Assembly: GCF_027943255.1 (NCBI RefSeq)
Contig: NC_072892.1
Span: 121,041,792 to 121,105,791, forward strand
Reading direction: 5' to 3'
Source: Anastrepha obliqua
Lineage: Eukaryota > Arthropoda > Insecta > Diptera > Tephritidae
DNA: 64,000 nucleotides
Below, in pieces: positions 32,817 through 61,317 of the stretch (position 1 is the first letter of the stretch; each line of letters starts with the position of its first letter). The translations under genes and the position numbers were made by a program. The notes beneath the pieces are model-generated. The model saw only the letters and a list, made by a program, of their open reading frames with translations. It searched no databases and had not been told where the DNA came from.

Positions 32817-34760
32817 TATCTAAATCCCATCAATCTTCCCCATTCCCTCAACAGCTCTTGGTGGATGTAGATATCTGCCTGGTAAGACGGATAAATTAGT
32901 TTGAGGCCACTCTTCCACAAATCTCTTGGATTCATTGATGAATTTGAAGAGATCCGGAAGAGGAAGAGTATGAACTTTGTCCATACTCAGTATATCGCAA
33001 CCCAATGTCCTAAGTCTGATTCTGGAAAATGCAGGACAGCTACAGTGAAAATACTCTGCAGTGTCGTCATTCTCAAGACAGGATAGGCATATCGGGCTGT
33101 CTACGACCCCCCCTGTGATTACACCCACCAGTACTCTCAGGTCCTTTTTGCTGAGTTTTAGGAGAAAGGTCGCAGTTTTCCTGTTTGGTTCTTTCACAAA
33201 GCACTTGGCTACTCTGCACGAGTTCAACTCAGACCAGCGACCTCTGTGGGTACAACTCATAAAGTCGTCAATCCGTAGTTGAATCGATGCGGAATTGACA
33301 CCTAGGAAGGGTTCAGGGCCTAGTGGCCTTGCAGAGCCTTCATTTGCCAATTTATCAGCTAACTCGTTCCCTGTAATACCACAATGTCCAGGGACCCAAA
33401 TAAGACTAACTTTGTTGTGTTTTACAACACTGTTCAGTTTTGTCTTACATTCACTGACTAACTTCGAAGAGCAGCGTGGGTTAGCAAGAATTTTCAGTGC
33501 AGCTTGACTGTCACTATAAATTCCAATACTGTTGCCCCACCACTTTTTTTCAATTAGGCAGTACGCCACATTCAACATGGCATAGACTTCCGTAAGGAAT
33601 ACCGTGGCCATCTGTCCTGTGGCTTAGGAGTACTCAATGTCTTCGTCTAATTACCATCCGTCGTTGTAGAAAGTGATATCCCGTTAATATTGCGTTGGGG
33701 AAACAGTAATGTCGTATTTTGTCAATTGAGCGCGACATTTAAACATATCTTGTGTATGTACATCGGGTCACATTCGGACGACAATCTGTACTACAAGTGT
33801 CTCTTTGACAGTGTTGTGATCGTACGTTTTAGTCTTAAGTTACAGCGCGTCAAAGATGGAGTCCACCAAGCAAGAAATTTGTCATATTTTACGTTTTTAC
33901 TACCTTAGATGTAAAAATGCAATGAAGGCGGCGGCAAAAATTAGTGAAGTTTATGAGCCTGATACTGTAACGAGGCGCACAGCACAGCGTTGGTTCGATC
34001 GATTTCGTTCTGGTGTTGTAGATGTCGAAGGTGCACCCCATACTGGTAGGCCAATCGTCGTAGAGACTGATAAAATCGTTAAAATTATCCAAAGAGACCA
34101 GCATGTGAGCATTCGTTCGATTAGTCAGGAACTAGGTGTAGACCACAAAACCGTTTAGAACCATTTGCAGAAAATTGGATTCCAAAAAAAGCTGGATGTT
34201 TGGGTGCCATACGTGTTGATGCAAAAAAATCTCTTGGACCGAATCAACGCTTGCGGGGTTTATAAAGGGGGGATAATGAAGTTGCCTTCTAAATGGTAAC
34301 AAGTTTGCGAACAAAACGGGACATATTTGACTTGAATCGGATAATTTTAAGTACGTTAAATAAAGCGTCAAGTTTCGATCAAAAATACGACATTTTTTTT
34401 TCTCCCAACCAATAGGTTCTCTGAACTTAACCATTGATCTCTATCTGGGATCAAAACATCATACTTCATATCGAAGCTAACGACAGGCACCCGATTGTCC
34501 ACCGGCATCGAGAACAGTGTGCCCCGCTCCGACAACTGGGGTATATCTGACAACGGCCAGTGCCTACTTCATTTCCCCAGACTCCGTTTAACTTGAGCCT
34601 GTATGCCGCCTTCATTGCTTCCTTTCGAATTCGAAGATCTAGGTTGCAAAGTTCAGAATGGCATTAAGGGCATCACCAGATGTCGTACTCATGGCACCTG
34701 TGATACCAAATCACACACTTCTCTGTAGCCTGTTTAGTGGTTTTACTCTGGAATTAATCA
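32817..34760 (-). pseudogene. LINE ORF2 remnant with long RNase H frame, split by mariner
   Basis: On the minus strand, GITGAMSTTSGDALNAILNF (post-RT region, about 34700) and CLSLRYEV/DRDQWLSSENL (about 34450) precede the mariner at 33690-34412. Immediately beyond it come the RNase H start FYNDG and then an uninterrupted 263-codon frame (33611-32820). That frame contains MATVFLTEVYAML, IYSDSQAALKIL, LIWVPGHCGITGNELADKLA, then CLSCLENDDTAEYFHCSCPA and the C-terminus. The RNase H Asp, Glu and Asp positions and the CxxC...HxxxC tail are intact. It is the best LINE copy in the window, though stops exist upstream (for example after FYNDGW). Confidence 0.82.
33690..34412 (+). mobile_element. Internally deleted mariner (723 bp) inside the LINE
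   Basis: The left end TTGCGTTGGGGAAACAGTAA and the inverted right end TTGGTTGGGAGAAAAAAAAA share their outer bases and an inner block ATGTCGTATTTT. TA lies at 33688-33689 and 34413-34414. The N-terminal frame from 33856 reads MESTKQEICHILRFYYLRCK, then TARTAQRWFDRFRSG-like text and SIRSISQELGVDHKTV before a stop. After a large deletion, GIMKLPSKW and QVCEQNGTYLT give the transposase C-terminus. All catalytic blocks are gone. Confidence 0.85.
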
Positions 34761-39454: not shown

Positions 39455-40655
39455 ACAAGGTGAATTTAAAAAAAAAATATGACTATAATAGATACGACAG
39501 GAGCTTTGTTCCGATCACTTCGAGTTTATTTATTCAAAATAGTTCCCTCTGACCTCGATATACTATTTTGCGTGATCTAAAAGCTTTTGGAAAGAGACTT
39601 TCAGGTCATTGACCGTAATCCGGAATGCCCTTCAGGATGTCGATGCAAGCCTTTTGAATAGCCTCTATGGACGCAAAACGTTCTCTTTTCTTTGCCAAAT
39701 GCAATTTTCCAAATGGGTAGAAGTCACAGAAAGCCATATCAGGTGAAGACGGTGAGTGATTGATGGTTAAAATTCGCTTCCTACTCAAAAAATCAGTCAC
39801 AAGAGTGGATCGATGAAATGGTGCATTATCATTACGGTATTCCGGGAGAATTCGATGAATGCGATGCAATAAACGCTTCAAAACGCCAAGATAGAAAATT
39901 GCATTGACGATTTGGCTCGTTGGCATGAACTTCTTTTGGACAATTCCCTTGGAATCGTAAAAACAAATGAGCATCAACTTGATTTTTGACTTCTCTAAAT
40001 GCGATTTTTTGGGTGATGGCTCGTCTGGGCTCTTCCATTTGGCACTTTCAAGCTTAATTTCAGGTTCATCTTGGATACACCACGTTTCATCACCAAAGGA
40101 AGTTCTCGTATTTTCTCGCCTATCGAATGTAGAATTCTGCGGAATGAAACATGCACAAACCTTTCGTAAGCCCAAATGATCAGTTAAAATACAATGAAAC
40201 GATGTTTTGGAGATATTCAACTCCGATTTCATGAATTTAAACGATGATTTCGGTTCATTTTTGATAAATTGATTAACAATTTCGATGGAGTTTTCGGGGA
40301 TTACCGATTTTGGGTGGCCCGTATGTTCATTGCCACCACTCATGAACTCTGGCACGAGATACACAATCATCGCCATACACTTTTTCATCAATTGAAATGT
40401 TTCGGTAAAAGTTTTACCGATTTTAAAACAAAATTTAATATTAGCTCTTTGTTCGAAACTCAGTTTTGTACCGATGACACAAACATACTGACACTTTAGA
40501 CGCAATAACTTCGCTTCCACTCAATCGACTGTCACCAAGCTTTCACTGGAAGTCGACTAGGGATGTAACTTCCAACGCACTAACTCATTAAAAAAATGCA
40601 GCCGTTAAAAACATTTTTATGGCGCCAGTCTTGCTTATTTTGGACTTCACCTTGT
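39455..40655 (-). mobile_element. Near full-length DD34D mariner
   Basis: The outer 10 bp ACAAGGTGAA occur at 39455 and, inverted, end at 40655; the inner repeat bases have diverged. TA precedes the left end, but the right flank reads ATAA, so the duplication is imperfect or the boundary is off by one. The 1201-bp length fits the family. It encodes the transposase frame at 39606-40520. Confidence 0.7.
39530..40520 (-). pseudogene. Mariner transposase, nearly complete
   Basis: A 304-codon minus-strand frame includes an N-terminal HTH region (LSFEQRANIKFCFKIGKTFT), a second HTH (SFKFMKSELNISKTSFHCIL), then SFGDETWCIQDEPE (first catalytic Asp), YRNDNAPFHRSTLVTDF (second) and SPDMAFCDFYPFGKLHLAKK (third). 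The usual WVPHxL linker is blurred (ACFIPQNSTF) and shortened. A frameshift near DYGQ at 39606 moves the expected C-terminus (VNDLKVSFQKLLDHAK, YIEVRGNYFE) to another frame, which also has a stop. The other two-thirds is open, making this one of the better preserved transposases here. Confidence 0.75.
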
Positions 40656-52511: not shown

Positions 52512-53826
52512 AAGTGTGATTTTTTAAGAGCTAAAGGAAAGCTTTTCAAAAAACACATGTAAAATTCAGATGCATCAAATTTTTATTTAAATCGATAGTA
52601 CAGTCCATATAATTTAATGTTTGAAGATTATTTCATGCAAATGTTGACCGCGACTGCGCTTCAAATGGTCCATCCGCTTAGTCCAATTTTGGCATACTTT
52701 TTCCAATGTTTCGGCCGGTATCTCACATATAAATGCTTTAATGTTGTCTTCCAATGCGTTAATTGAAGCAGACCTGTCTGAATCGACATGAGCTTTAACA
52801 GAGCTCCACACAAAATAATCTAAAGGCGTTATATCGCACGATCTGGGTGGCCAATTGACAGATTGGCAGGTCCCGAACGTGAAATAAAATGTTCACCGAA
52901 CTCGCCTTTCAACAAATCCATTCTTACGCGTGCTGTGTGGCAGGTGGCACCGTCTTGCTGAAACCTGAAACCACATGTCATGCAAGTCAAGCTCTTGCAT
53001 TTTGGGCAAAAAAAAGTTGGATACCATTTCACGGTAGCGCTCACCATTCACAGTTACGTTACGATTCGCAGCATATTTGAAGAAGTACGGTCCAATGATA
53101 CCTCCAGCCCATAAACCGCACCAAACCGTGACCTTTTCTGGATACATTGGTAGCTCTTGCAATTCTTCTGGCTGATCTTCACTCCAAAATCGACAATTCT
53201 GCTTATTTACGTACCCATTGATCCAAAAATGAGCTTCGTCGCTGAACACAATTTTTCGATAAAAAAGTGGATCTTCGGCCAACTTTCCAAGAACCCTTTC
53301 ACCCAAAATTCTGCGTTGCGGTAGGTCGTTCGGCTTCAATTCTCGCACCAGCTGTATTTTGAAAGGCTCCACACCTAAATCCTTTCGCAAAATTTTCCGC
53401 GTTGTTGAGTAACAGAGGCCCAATTGCTGCGAACGGCGACGAATCGATAATTGATGGTCATCATTAACAATGGCCGATACAGCTGCGATATTTTCTTCAG
53501 TTCGCACTCTACGTAAGCGTGTTGGTGGTTTAATGTCCAATAATGTAAATTTGGTTCTAAATTTAGTCACAATAGCTCGAATAGCCGCTTCAGCGGGTCG
53601 ATTAAACTGACCATAAAATGGAAGAAGTGCGCGATAATCTTTCTTAACAGAACATGCAATTATATAATAAAATTCAATGATTTGCAAGCGTTGGTCGTTT
53701 GTAAGACGATTCATGGTTAAATTATAGACCAAACTGAAGATGTTTGACAGTGAAACAAAACACGAAACTATTTAAACCAACTGTCTACTATTTAAACCAA
53801 CTGATAATAGCTAAAAAATCACCCGT
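52512..53826 (-). mobile_element. DD41D (rosa-like) mariner, near complete
   Basis: The ends are AAGTGTGATTTTTTAAGAGC (left) and ACGGGTGATTTTTTAGC (inverted right), with TA at 52510-52511 and 53827-53828. The 1315-bp length and one long transposase gene (minus strand) are normal for a full element. It is the best DD41D copy here. Confidence 0.85.
52614..53732 (-). pseudogene. DD41D transposase with two small insertions
   Basis: A 279-codon frame from 53732 (or from the second Met in LTMNRLTNDQRLQII) carries two HTH regions and VFSDEAHFWINGYVNKQNCR (first catalytic Asp), then VTVWCGLWAGGIIGPYFFK. At 52958-52971 a 7-bp tandem duplication (ctgaaac twice) shifts the frame just before FQQDGATCHTARVRM (second Asp). 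About 8 extra bases near 52853-52866 shift it again before the third block (NWPPRSCDITPLDYF). The last frame ends KRSRGQHLHEIIFKH, the expected C-terminus. Apart from these two lesions, all catalytic blocks are intact. Confidence 0.85.
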
Positions 53827-53828
53827 TA

Positions 53829-54170
53829 GTTGATTATCGGGTACTACTTCTCACGTCAGCACAGCATCATTTAAGATTTTTTATTTTTTATTTTTTTTTA
53901 TTGATACTTTTCTCTGCAATCTATCTTTACGACAATAAGCGAATATTATGAATATTTAGCGAAGTCCTCAACCATCTGTGTGATCCTTCTGATAGAAAAA
54001 TTTAAAACACAGACAGCGCTCCAAGCAGTAAGAAGACGTTGTTCTTAAGCAACGACATCTGGGCATTCCCACTACTTAGGACTGTTAGCGGCAGGCTAAT
54101 CACCTACCCATCAGAAATGAATAGTTTAACGAAAGCAACGCAAGGACAAAAAATGAGGAATATTTAGTAA
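53829..54170. other. Spacer between two DNA elements
   Basis: No gene was recognised. The last three bases (TAA, 54168-54170) are the left target duplication of the large element. Confidence 0.5.
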
Positions 54171-54679
54171 TAGACGGAGAGCTCATGACCAAAAAACCCA
54201 ACATATTTTATACCACTTGAAATTTTGTGTGTGATTAGTTTTTTAATACTAGAATCGATATCCCGCGGGCTGGCTGCTCAATAGCGGTCTTAATTATGGG
54301 TTTTTATTTTTTAAAATTGTTAATAAAAAACATTTTCCCAACATATTTTATACCACTTGAAATTTTAACAGAACTTCATTTACGGTCTGTATAAAATGAA
54401 ACGATGGTTGCCAGCCCATTCTCATGGTCCCAAAGTACTGCCAGCCCATGTTGAAAGTGCGTTGATGGAAGCACAAGTCAACATATTTTATACCGGCTGT
54501 CTTTTTTACACGACATTGGCAATACAGTAAATTGATGAAATCTGTAGAGCCAGCCCATTCTGATGGTCCCATCACATGGAAAATTTGGAAAATTTCATTC
54601 ATTTCATTCATTCATGAGTGCGAGCGAGACCGACTTACGTGAATGTGGGCGCGCGAGAGAGAGCGTATATCGTTTATAT
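54171..54679 (+). repeat. Left terminal inverted repeat of the 6.4-kb element
   Basis: Within the repeat CAACATATTTTATACC occurs three times (from 54199, 54339 and 54479). The first two sit in a longer 30-bp block starting CCCAACATATTTTATACCAC at 54197 and 54337. GCCAGCCCATTCTnATGGTC occurs at 54410 and 54549, with a half copy at 54440. Such subterminal repeats are candidate binding sites for the mobilising protein. Confidence 0.9.
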
Positions 54680-54801
54680 TCTGTATCTCCGTACAGTCTT
54701 GCAAAAATGGGAAGGATGAAAGGTTTGTTCATCAAAAAATTAGAGAATGGATTTTTTTTTTCCTTTTCTTAAAAAAGTTGTTATTTCTAATTTATTATTC
54801 C

Positions 54802-54830
54802 TTTATTTATTTATTTAATTTATTACATGA
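54802..54830 (-). terminator. Polyadenylation signals of the large gene
   Basis: Several overlapping AATAAA hexamers on the minus strand lie 27-55 bases past the proposed stop at 54857-54859. Confidence 0.55.
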
Positions 54831-54856
54831 ATAGAAAACAAAACAAAATTAAATTT

Positions 54857-57800
54857 TTAATTTTCGATGTCAGAAATTGATTCCGAGTCTGAACTGAAAT
54901 AGTCATTTTCTATTTCTTCAGCTTCAGCATCTGAAAGAAAATCATACCGTCAATCAAAATACCTGATAGTTGCAATATTTCGGACTATGAATGAAGGCGT
55001 AAAATACTATACCTGATTCAATGTTGTCATTCGTTGAAGAAGTTTCTATGACAGCTCCAAGAACTGATTGAGGGAATTGGTCGCCATCAAACCAATTAAA
55101 AGAAAGAAATTCTCCATTTCTCACCCAGCCACTCGATTCGGGGATATAACAAGTTGGAGATTTCAAATAAGCGTTGCGCCATGTATTTCCAATATATTGA
55201 GCTCGCAGAAGTTGCTGATGTAACTCGGTTCTACATGGCGGTAAAGACGATGCGTCGAAATTTTTCAGCTGTTTCTGGAATGCTTCGTTTACATTTGACG
55301 CTTTATATGTCTCCCAGAATTTAGAAAAGCGACCGCTGTTCACGTCATTTATGTTTCTTAAATTGTACATTTCGCATACAAATTTTTCCAGCATTTTAAA
55401 TATATGAGTTTTTGTTGCGATGGAGTTTATATTCCCCAGTTCAATAAAAGCATTTTGATATTCCGGTGATTTTTTTAATATCTGGAAAGGTCTTTTCTTG
55501 CCTTTTCTGTAAAAGGCCGGACTGTAATCACAACCGGTCAGGGCATGGAATCCTGGTAAACTCTGGCATAGGGATGGGCCGAGTTGTTCACTGAGATCAT
55601 TGATATCAATGCAACGTTTGTTATTGCCAGTTCCTAATTCCATAAATATGTGCAATTCGTCATGCGAAAGATGGTCCATGTTACCCAGCATGATGATCAG
55701 TATGTCAGTATCGGAACATTTTATTAAAACATTCTCGCAGACCGCTTTACACACATGATACACAATTTTTGTATCTGCTTCCTCCTGAAGTTCGCATGAC
55801 ATTTCCTCATCGACGATTTTCGATACAGAGGCGCCGTCACTTGTAAATGTATAGCACACATCGTAATTCAATTTTATGGTTGAATTGCCAATAAATGGCG
55901 CCATTTCCACTGCTCCCCAATGTTCTATGAGAAATCTGACCAGTGCGTTCTTGAATTTGCTATTTCTTAATTCTTTATTGAAATCTTTAGGTCGAGTTTG
56001 TTCGGGTCCTGTGATCTTATAATCGATACTGCTGACATTTCCTCTTTGTATTCGTTCATAATCTTTAATGGATGGAGTAAAATATTGGTCGAATATGATG
56101 TCGAATCGTTTGGCCGGTGTCTTCTGCATGAATGAGATAATTTTTTTTGATAAATTTCCAAAAGTGTTTGGAATTTCTTTCATTAAGTGGAGCAGGAAAA
56201 ATCCATCGATTATGACTATGTCGAATATTTGCGGTATGTTAGCAGCTGTATTTATTTTTAAAACCTGAGTGATTACAGATTTTTCAGTCTTACAAATTGT
56301 TCCATCAGAATGACATAGAGATAACGGAATTGGTGTTATTGGATAAGACAATATTTTTTCGACGTCGATATTGAAATCCATCGATAATGCCACAATTCGT
56401 GCAAATAGATCCCGTTGTAAGCGTATTTCGTAGACCTGGTTGGCAACTTTTGCTTTATTATTTACTGCATTGGCTGAAAAATTACAAATTTTAACCCTTG
56501 TGATGGCTTTCTCAAATCGCTGTGGGTCTATGGAGCACTGAGCAATGAATTCTTCCCTTAACTGGCTCCCTGATTGTTCAAATGTCAATAAATAATTTTC
56601 AACCTGCAATGATGCAGCCTTTCCCGTAGCGATGTTGAAGAGAAAATTCCTGTCAATGCTGTCATCGAAGGGGTTCATAAATTTATCAAAAATTTTTATG
56701 AAATTTCGGAGTTGATTAGAATCTCTTTTGATGATATGCGGTTCCAGTTGCGTTATGACATCGGGACGTTTCTTCAAACCAGCAGTTTCATATACATGGG
56801 AAATGATGGCAGCACGAATAGCATGACTTTTTGCCCAACGTTGCCGGGCAGAAATGGAATTTGTGAAATGGATTATTCCCGTCAATCGTTTTGCTGCATC
56901 GGCATTAATTGTTTGTTCTAAGGTTATATCAATCGGTTGTCTTGAAAAAACTTTGTCGGTTCGTTTTATGCCAAAGAAGCCTTCTTTTATGGCAACATGT
57001 AACGATGGGTGCGTTTCCTCAATCTTGTTCAAATTGTCGATATATCTGACTAGCCAACGTGCATAATTCGGCTGGTTGGATACAAAGAAAATGTTTGCTA
57101 TTTTCGGTAATATGTATTTGAAAAGTATGAAGTCTCCAGTCCTAATACTTCGACTTAGTGTAAGATAATGATGGACGAGATTTATGTACATTGTGTAAAA
57201 TTGCTGCGTTTTCCCAAATTTTCCATTCAAGCAATCTTCTTGGTATTTGAAGTATTTAGTCAACAACATTGAAACATCCCGATTCTTGACTACATCAAGG
57301 AAGTAACTGTCTACGTTCTTATATACATCTAAGGCAGAACGTACTTCATCACAACAATTTATATTTTCATGCTTTACGAATGCTTCAAACATAAGGCACT
57401 CCAAGCCCAAAGCCATCATTGGGTGCAGCCTTTTGCATCTATTAAAATGTTTTCCAATCACAAAACTATTTACCGAGCCGCCAGCAATAATGTCGCTTTC
57501 AACGGCAACGTCCATGAGACCACAATCTGTGATATATTTGCCTATGGCTTTAAAATAAGCGAGCATTATGTGGAAGGCACCTAAATGGATAAATAAATTG
57601 TCAAATCGTGGTTTTTCTGTTGCTTGGATCTGCATTGCCACTTTAGCAATAGCTAAGTCGTAGGTGACATCAATGTGAGACTGTCCCAGTTCAGTGGCTA
57701 TTTTTTGGCTGCGGATCATGGTTTCCAAAACAACAGAGATATCAGTTGGCGAGACATTAATTGGTGTCAGATAGAGAACTTTTTGTTTTGAAACGTTAAT

Positions 57801-59670
57801 TTCTTCACAATATCGGCTGTTAAATCCCACCCACATAGGCGTATTTGGGATACTTAAAGCATGGGAAATAGCCCAGAGGGCATCTAATTGTTGCACTGTC
57901 TGTAGAGTAGATGAAATTACTGAATCCTGGTCCCTATTATATATCTGAAGTGTGTCAACGAGTCTCGCTTTTTTTGTGTACGGTGTAAGTTCTGTGGAAA
58001 TTGCATCAAATGTGCGTCGTCTTTTTGATGGACCTGCAGCAGTTGTGTCACGTTGACATTCATCATCAGCAACATTGCTATCATTATTAATTACATTTTG
58101 ATAGATGATACCAACCGTATCATGTAGGGTATCTTTCCCGCTGGTTGTTTCGACAAATCTGTCGAAATTATCGAAAGCCACCCCAGTATTTAAATTTGAT
58201 GCCAACGTAATACCTTCAGGACATTCCTGAGTCCTTTCTATAGAAGAAAATGTAGCTTCGGTTTCCAGTTCTTCGAGAACATGATAGCTGCAGCAGTGAC
58301 CGTATTTGTTGAGAATATCGATAACTTTACGGCTGCTGGTTAAACTTTTCATAGCCATTCCCAAGGTAATATGCTTTCCAGGCTTCATATTTCCATTCGT
58401 AACCGCGTAGATTGTGTCGGCTGCAATTGAATTGACTTTTCTGTATAAGTCTGGGGTGTTCTTACGTCGATTTCGGGCCCCGCTCAACAACATCACGTAA
58501 AAATTTATCAAATCACGGTCGATCATACATTCTCCAGCCAGCAATTCATTCAACTTTACATTCGAGGATAAAGGCTTCTTTTCAATATTTAAAATTCTTC
58601 TTCGTAAAATGAATGCTGCTTTTTGGAGTATTTCATCTTCTTGTAACAGCGAAAAAAGGCCATCATCTATGAATTTATTTTTCGGTAAAATTACGTTTTT
58701 ATTTCTGAAAGCTGAGACTTTAATTTCATCACTGAATTTATCAAGAATTTTATTCAGCAAATGTTGAAGGTTGCATGAACCATCATAACTATAGCCACGG
58801 TCTTCGTACAATTTCTTCAATATATCATCGTATATTTCACCCAGAGATATTAAAAAGAAACAACTGCCACGAGCAATGATGTTTTTTTGGATGAACTGAT
58901 CAATTTCATCATCAGCTTCCTTGTGTAGTTCCCGATTCAGATTAAATTTTGTGTCTGCAGTTGGATTGCTTTTAAATTTATTAAAATATTCAACCCGACA
59001 GATTTTGTGATAAAATAAGTGCGGAGGCTCGTTCGAAAGTGACTTAAAAAATTCACTATCTTTCACAACATCCAAATATTCTGCCAAGGCTTCAATGAGA
59101 TTTTTTTTTTCTCCTCTGACAAGTGGTGCCTGACGTCCTTTGGATTTTTTATATTTTTTATTACAAAATGCACAAATATCCTGCTCCACACTTAATGCTG
59201 CCTCCGTTAATTTTTCACCTGAAGGTTCTTGTATGGCAGATTGACCTTCCTGATGTGTTTGTTCTATTTCGTGAGCAGATGAAGTGCTTGGTGTCGGTTC
59301 ATCTGTGAAAATATATTTGAATACAAAAAAAATTATAATCGGAACTAGTATTATATTCCTTCCCTTATTACAGTAAAATAAATATTTTCATACCTGTTTG
59401 AACTGAAATATCCGATGATGTAACTGCCTTTTTTTCATAATACTTTTTCATGACTGCTAAGAACATTTTATGGCATTTTATATGATAGCCGTCATTACAT
59501 TCTGATGCTGGTAAAATAACATCTTTATATTTTAAATTAAATTTTTTCCGAATGTCCAACACTTCCCGGCACTTTTTTAACGTATGCACGGTAAAAGCAA
59601 CGAGTTTATCATTTGTTCTTTTACTGTTACAAAAAACGCACTTGATGGAAGATTCCATTTTAAATAACAA
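54857..59670 (-). CDS. Three-exon gene, 1546-aa protein with FEN1/XPG-like nuclease core
   Basis: The proposed exons are 59670-59394, 59302-55013 and 54930-54857. The introns (91 and 82 bp) have gtatg/gtata donors and ttcacag/tttcag acceptors. The sum is exactly 1547 codons including TAA, and exon 2 is open for 4290 bases. Residues about 11-73 and 135-197 are two related zinc-binding-like modules (CVFCN ... YHIKCHKMF; CAFCN ... YHKICRVEYF). A central block (about 635-735) has DVTYDLAIAK, NLFIHLGAFHIMLAYF and SFVIGKHFNR; it may be the core of a mobilising enzyme, but this is unproven. Residues about 1118-1370 match the FEN1/XPG nuclease order: VIIDG (D1125), IIFDQ (D1164), EEAD (E1267, D1269), SDTD (D1290, D1292) and TGCDY (D1351), followed by RKGKKRPFQIL like the helix-two-turn-helix. 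The C-terminus is acidic. It is probably the element's own mobility protein. Skipping the second intron would end the protein at CNYQVF. Confidence 0.8.
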
Positions 59671-59818
59671 GTAAGAAAATCGAACGAAGAGTTAAAATTT
59701 ACGTCTTTACTAGCCAACACTGTGGAAAGAACTAACTATACCTGACGTCGTACTTTGGGTCCGGACACTGTTGTCCTTGAATACCGCCCTTATTGTATTG
59801 CAGGCAGATGGCGACTTA

Positions 59819-59979
59819 TAGACGGAGAGCTCATGACCAAAAAACCCAACATATTTTATACTTCTTGAAATTTTGTGTGAGATTAGTTTTTTAATACTCG
59901 AATCGATATCCGGGGGCTGGCTGCTCAATAGCGGTCTTAAATAATATGTTGGGTTTTTTGGTCATGAGCTCTTAGACTA
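59819..59979. mobile_element. 161-bp MITE nested in the 6.4-kb element
   Basis: Its left end TAGACGGAGAGCTCATGACC and inverted right end TAGTCTAAGAGCTCATGACC are those of the host element. TTA flanks it at 59816-59818 and 59980-59982. It keeps about 120 bp of one terminal repeat and about 40 bp of the other and has no gene. It lies 149 bp upstream of the start codon of the large gene, so it may sit in the promoter or leader. Confidence 0.88.
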
Positions 59980-60049
59980 TTATGAATCACCATTCAAAAT
60001 TCCTAGTAAAAAAGTAGAGCCAGCGCGCGCGACAGATAGTATATAAACG

Positions 60050-60558
60050 ATATAAACGATATACGCTCTCTCTCGCGCGCCCACATTCACGTAAGTCGGT
60101 CTCGCTCGCACTCATGAATGAATGAAATGAATGAAATTTTCCAAATTTTCCATGTGATGGGACCATCAGAATGGGCTGGCTCTACAGATTTCATCAATTT
60201 ACTGTATTGCCAATGTCGTGTAAAAAAGACAGCCGGTATAAAATATGTTGACTTGTGCTTCTATCAACGCACTTTCAACATGGGCTGGCAGTACTTTGGG
60301 ACCATGAGAATGGGCTGGCAACCATCGTTTCATTTTATACAGACCGTAAATGAAGTTCTGTTAAAATTTCAAGTGGTATAAAATATGTTGGGAAAATGTT
60401 TTTTATTAACAATTTTAAAAAATAAAAACCCATAATTAAGACCGCTATTGAGCAGCCAGCCCGCGGGATATCGATTCTAGTATTAAAAAACTAATCTCAC
60501 ACAAAATTTCAAGTGGTATAAAATATGTTGGGTTTTTTGGTCATGAGCTCTTAGACTA
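60050..60558 (-). repeat. Right terminal inverted repeat of the 6.4-kb element
   Basis: This is the inverted copy of 54171-54679, with the same subterminal motifs in mirror order. It ends at a further tataaacga repeat just inside (60041-60060). The 87-codon open frame at 60118-60381 lies wholly in the repeat, and its twin in the left repeat differs by one residue. It is not regarded as a gene. Confidence 0.9.
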
Positions 60559-60561
60559 TAA

Positions 60562-61317
60562 GTTAGGTTAGGTTAAGTTAAGATGGTAGTCAGTTTATAG
60601 GACTCACTCAGATCTTACACGACCAATGCTCCACCAGAATATACTTGTGCTAGCGTGTTTGCCAATCCTCGAACCATTTCTGTTATGTGCTTTTTGGTGT
60701 GGCCACGAGCTCTTCCAGCTATACGATCTTCATCTTTTGAATCACGACAAGTCGACGTGCTCTTAAGAGTCTCTTCAATTTTAGTAACAGATTAGGGTGT
60801 TTGATTGATTATTCAGCTATTTCAGGTCATAAAATACACAAACCCATCAAATACAAGCCCACATGAATACTCGTGATTTAAAAAGTTCACTTTTTCGAAT
60901 AAACCTTTAATATTTATTTTGTGTGTTAACCCTTTGCTTGGTTGATTCATTGAAACAGACTGATATAGAATAAACATTTGAAAATAACGTATGAAAAAGG
61001 AATAACGTATGAAAAAGGAATATAAACTGGAATGGAGAAGAGATGTGGGTAACGAAAGCAGTGATGGCAAGTGTTGTCACCTGTATCTATTTCCAATATT
61101 CTTACTGATCGCAATATTTCTGGTGATTTTCAGCTATATTTACTACATAAAATTTGATACCTTAATACTGAAGCTATTTTACCAGCACAATATACATTAT
61201 CGTATGTACCCTATCACAATAATAATCAAATATATGAAAGGCATTTACAAATTTTTATTAACTTTATTTAAAGTTTTATTTTAAAAAACTAAGTATTCAG
61301 ATTTATTGTCTTAATTA
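60562..61317. other. Spacer between the two long-TIR elements
   Basis: It begins with taggttaggttaagttaag, as at LINE 3' ends. GC-richer text to about 60790 may be an old LINE end. A 91-residue frame at 61009-61284 is rich in hydrophobic residues, but AT-rich DNA readily produces this. No gene is claimed. Confidence 0.4.

Follow-up and report, generated by a model that had tools for sequence, protein, structure and literature searches.

The locus examined here raises the question of which kind of mobile element occupies positions 54171 to 60558 of a 64,000-nucleotide stretch of the Anastrepha obliqua genome (assembly GCF_027943255.1, contig NC_072892.1, positions 121,041,792 to 121,105,791; hereafter the window). 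An initial annotation had described an intact DNA element with long inverted repeats and no familiar transposase, possibly representing an undescribed superfamily. Very probably, at about 0.85, the element is a cut-and-paste DNA transposon of the nuclease branch of Academ, AcademX, and is both intact and autonomous. The name Academ is strongly suggested by features available in print, short of proof; the discovery of a new superfamily is not supported.

Ends, copies and target-site duplications

The element comprises 6388 bp and was delimited by its inverted repeats and identical TAA flanks; its ends recur in other copies. The left terminal inverted repeat (54171 to 54686, plus strand, 516 nt) starts with TAGACGG and the right one (60043 to 60558, minus strand, 516 nt), read inwards, with TAGTCTA. 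Both arms pair without gaps over 516 to 517 nt, with eight mismatches over 516 nt (about 98% identity); five mismatches lie within the first 509 positions and three of these in the terminal 7 nt, in agreement with the 509-bp repeats and about five differences reported initially. TAA was likewise found where it had been described, at 54168 to 54170 and 60559 to 60561. The outermost seven bases (54171 to 54177 and 60552 to 60558) differ at three positions despite the near identity of the long arms, and one TAGACGG end and one TAGTCTA end were present in 17 of 17 two-ended copies, window included; the two ends may have distinct roles.

The host genome (836 Mb, 204 contigs) was searched with the left end as query, and 40 of 179 candidates were scored. 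At least 69 matches were obtained, which grouped into 29 places including the window; 20 of the 28 other places were fetched. Sixteen two-ended copies outside the window measured 2.0 to 4.6 kb and carried large internal deletions. Aligned pieces were 98–100% identical to the window element in copies L009 to L020, 96–99% in L021 to L025 and 93–98% in L026 to L028. L023 is nearly full length with its frame broken into several pieces, and among the 21 copies examined the whole frame is open in the window copy only. The near-identical copies and the intact window copy bear out the earlier view of a transposon.

Identical 3-bp flanks were found in 15 of the 17 two-ended copies, as compared to a mean of 2.6 and a maximum of 8 with shuffled flanks (10000 trials). 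The match extends over 3 bp and no more in 14 of them; in L027 both 3 and 7 bp (TTAGTTA) match, and this copy was scored as a 3-bp match. L013 and L016, which possess both ends and no duplication, were scored as misses, and the end of L011, which has one mismatch, was added by eye. L023, L025 and L028, with a single end in the fetched stretch, and L021 stand outside the 17; counting L021 with an end at its position 940 (TAA flanks) gives 16 of 18. The 15 triplets were TAA (five), TTA (two) and ATA, TAT, GGG, CTA, TGA, TTT, AAA and GGA (one each). Target sites lean AT-rich and follow no TWA rule, TAA or TTA accounting for 7 of 15 duplications. The further copies with the same ends that had been anticipated thus exist and have 3-bp duplications, whereas a strict TWA target was not confirmed. 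No similarity between the flanks of different copies was detected at E ≤ 1e-4.

Insertion with a 3-bp duplication could be observed directly for a nested non-autonomous relative of 161 bp (59819 to 59979), which has TAGACGG and TAGTCTA ends like the large element and is flanked by TTA at 59816 to 59818 and 59980 to 59982. L026 and L027 lack this unit and keep a single TTA at its exact junction, with 109 of 114 bases matching the joined flanks; these copies therefore represent a direct empty site and show that the nested unit was inserted with a 3-bp duplication. The unit occupies the same junction, with both TTA copies, in 14 of the 20 fetched copies and therefore probably joined the family before the copies spread. 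Furthermore, positions 212 to 940 of L021 form a 729-bp derivative which apparently ends inside the nested unit and has an outer-type end, with TAA on both sides.

The locus could also be read as a non-mobile, duplicated host gene whose inverted repeats arose by chance or by a segmental event. Such a reading would suit the spliced and intact gene described below and the annotation of its relatives as ordinary proteins, but it is hardly conceivable given the same ends at many places, their unrelated flanks and 3-bp duplications, and the empty site of the nested relative.

A single gene with predicted transposase and nuclease folds

The element contains a single gene on the minus strand with three exons (59658 to 59394, 59302 to 55013 and 54930 to 54857), encoding 1542 residues without internal stops. 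GT..AG introns were picked by eye and the length was counted from the first ATG; the gene is intact as initially annotated, and the length of 1546 residues given then had to be corrected. Exon 1 (59394 to 59658), based on the open frame and its GT..AG junction, carries a first CxxC...HxxC zinc-binding-like module. Exon 2 (55013 to 59302) encodes a second such module, a DDE transposase core and an XPG/FEN1-like nuclease, as judged from predicted folds and conservation, and exon 3 (54857 to 54930) a short acidic C-terminal tail and the stop codon. By-eye comparison revealed counterparts of the exon 1 N-terminus and of the acidic tail in the relatives P0009 and P0013. A winged-helix-like stretch is present besides the zinc-binding-like modules. 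No other frame of at least 100 amino acids was found inside the element. A Pfam scan of the protein yielded DUF6589 alone, as a weak match, and no Harbinger family; an NCBIfam scan gave no match, and sequence searches for a relative of solved structure found none.

Relatives of the protein numbered 129 at E ≤ 0.001. The three top-scoring ones among the matches listed showed 50–54% identity over 91–99% of the query, and named sources among the 120 listed include sawflies, beetles, butterflies, ants, an aphid, a limpet and others. A cnidarian relative (Hydractinia) was obtained in a search with the transposase region begun from a distant relative. None of the 120 is named as a transposon; they are annotated as ordinary or "uncharacterized" proteins, and in public annotation transposon proteins of this kind go unrecognised as "uncharacterized" genes. 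P0151, from the same transposase-region search as the cnidarian relative, is filed under a bacterial metagenome-assembled genome (Candidatus Thiodiazotropha) and probably represents DNA of the bivalve host. A scan of viral contigs revealed no relative. Forty of the 120 listed relatives were aligned with the window protein, and nearly all of the 41 sequences contain both sets of acids, those of the DDE core and those of the nuclease.

The predicted DDE (RNase H-like) transposase core lies at 56745 to 58424 on the minus strand (residues about 256 to 815 of the open reading frame), with D340 or D343, D511 and E758 as candidate catalytic residues; these are conserved in 39, 41, 41 and 39 of the 41 sequences, respectively. 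An AlphaFold2 model of residues 1 to 900 (mean pLDDT, the model's own confidence score, 87) suggests an RNase H-like core into which a helical segment is inserted ahead of the last acid. VIA-align placed Hermes and Transib on top and ISCth4, RAG1 and Tn5 lower, with moderate Z values, and Foldseek by itself returned nothing at E ≤ 0.001. The protein of the element is thus predicted to contain a DDE transposase fold, and the statement that a familiar transposase is missing is not supported.

The TAA flanks and 3-bp duplications would also agree with an element of the PIF/Harbinger type that targets TWA. However, TWA accounts for fewer than half of the duplications, the Harbinger domain is absent from the Pfam scan, the core model with its helical insertion aligned best to Hermes and Transib, and one gene of 1542 codons takes the place of a short DDE transposase and a separate Myb-like protein. 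Such an assignment is very improbable, and it had already been judged not to fit.

The predicted XPG/FEN1-like nuclease is encoded at 55140 to 56285 on the minus strand (residues about 969 to 1350). Its acids D995, D1034, E1137, D1139, D1160, D1162 and D1221, which we take to correspond to the FEN1 positions, are kept in 39 to 41 of the 41 sequences. The model and this conservation argue for an XPG/FEN1 nuclease fold with its seven metal-binding acids, as the initial annotation had proposed along with the zinc-binding-like modules. The predicted fold and the seven active-site acids are shared with the FEN1, EXO1 and XPG nucleases; in contrast to these, the domain is fused behind a transposase within a transposon, and identity in fold alignments was 10–17%. 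The AcademX nuclease is, by name, of the XPG type.

Probable assignment to Academ and rival superfamilies

Judging by the models, hAT (Hermes) and Transib/RAG1 transposases may resemble the element in having an RNase H-like core into which helices are inserted ahead of the final acid. The element differs from them by its 3-bp duplications, as compared to 8 bp for hAT and 5 bp for Transib, by the added XPG-like nuclease and by an identity of 8–10% in fold alignments.

Comparison with Academ was based on printed descriptions, in the accessible parts of the sources. AcademX is described there with a nuclease and duplications of 3 or 4 bp, AcademH with a helicase and duplications of 9 or 10 bp, the duplication length seemingly being tied to the respective enzyme (PMC10045372). 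Academ duplications are given as 3 bp (PMC5199201), Academ is counted among the DDD/E superfamilies (PMC9587614) and its mean length in bivalves is 5565 bp (PMC10294476); the group was first reported by Kapitonov and Jurka 2010, cited in PMC4455052. The window element agrees with AcademX in duplication length (15 of 17 copies), in a DDD/E transposase, as judged from the conserved acids and a predicted fold whose Z values are moderate, in an encoded nuclease, from its predicted fold and conserved acids, and in a size of several kb. No difference from AcademX was found by description; the 516-nt ends and the fused 1542-residue protein are features of this element. AcademH belongs to the same superfamily in print, but has a helicase and 9–10 bp duplications instead of a nuclease and 3 bp. 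No recognised helicase family occurred among the best 120 of 143 profile matches, and none was recognised among the best 120 of 121 transposase-region matches obtained from the distant relative. The moderate Z values, about which the fold tool itself issues a warning, slightly lower the confidence in the assignment to AcademX.

A new superfamily of separate origin might share the DDE and XPG-like layout and the 3-bp duplications with AcademX, in keeping with the single weak Pfam match to DUF6589 and a comparison that contained no named Academ protein sequence. This alternative, raised in the initial annotation, is unlikely, as the element matches the accessible printed accounts of AcademX and Academ in what it encodes, in its size and in the length of its duplications. 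Moreover, with relatives found in insects as well as in a limpet and a cnidarian, a catalogued group is likely. Literature searches for Academ, AcademX, AcademH and superfamily lists revealed no title or opening of an abstract describing the element, supplements being outside the search. A whole-word search for Academ with XPG gave nothing, titles and abstract openings of the best 20 of 92 papers on XPG-like transposons contained no description of it, and a search for DUF6589 returned unrelated work alone.

Possible mechanism and neighbouring sequence

A division of labour within the protein of the element seems likely. The zinc-binding-like modules and the winged-helix-like stretch probably hold the element ends, and the DDE core would excise the element and insert it with a 3-base stagger; the duplication is observed, and catalysis by this core is inferred. 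The XPG/FEN1-like nuclease probably trims flap or branched intermediates at the ends, and gap repair after excision may have produced the internally deleted copies. Tentatively, the fused nuclease might even perform an obligatory step of transposition, e.g., cutting one strand per end or trimming flaps to yield the 3-bp stagger. If true, this would be a mechanism unseen in well-studied DDE transposases, and the intact recent copy would be a ready test system. Academ-type transposons are a little-studied group, and the presence in one genome of an intact copy, of near-identical relatives with deletions and of a 161-bp relative provides material for testing the role of a flap-type nuclease beside a transposase.

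Elsewhere in the window, an open frame at 52893 to 53732 has, by eye, the look of a Tc1/mariner-type transposase, a frame at 39606 to 40520 that of a mariner-type transposase and a frame at 32820 to 33611 that of a retrotransposon RNase H piece. A short TTAGG-like tract (60562 to 60582) is located directly past the right duplication of the element.
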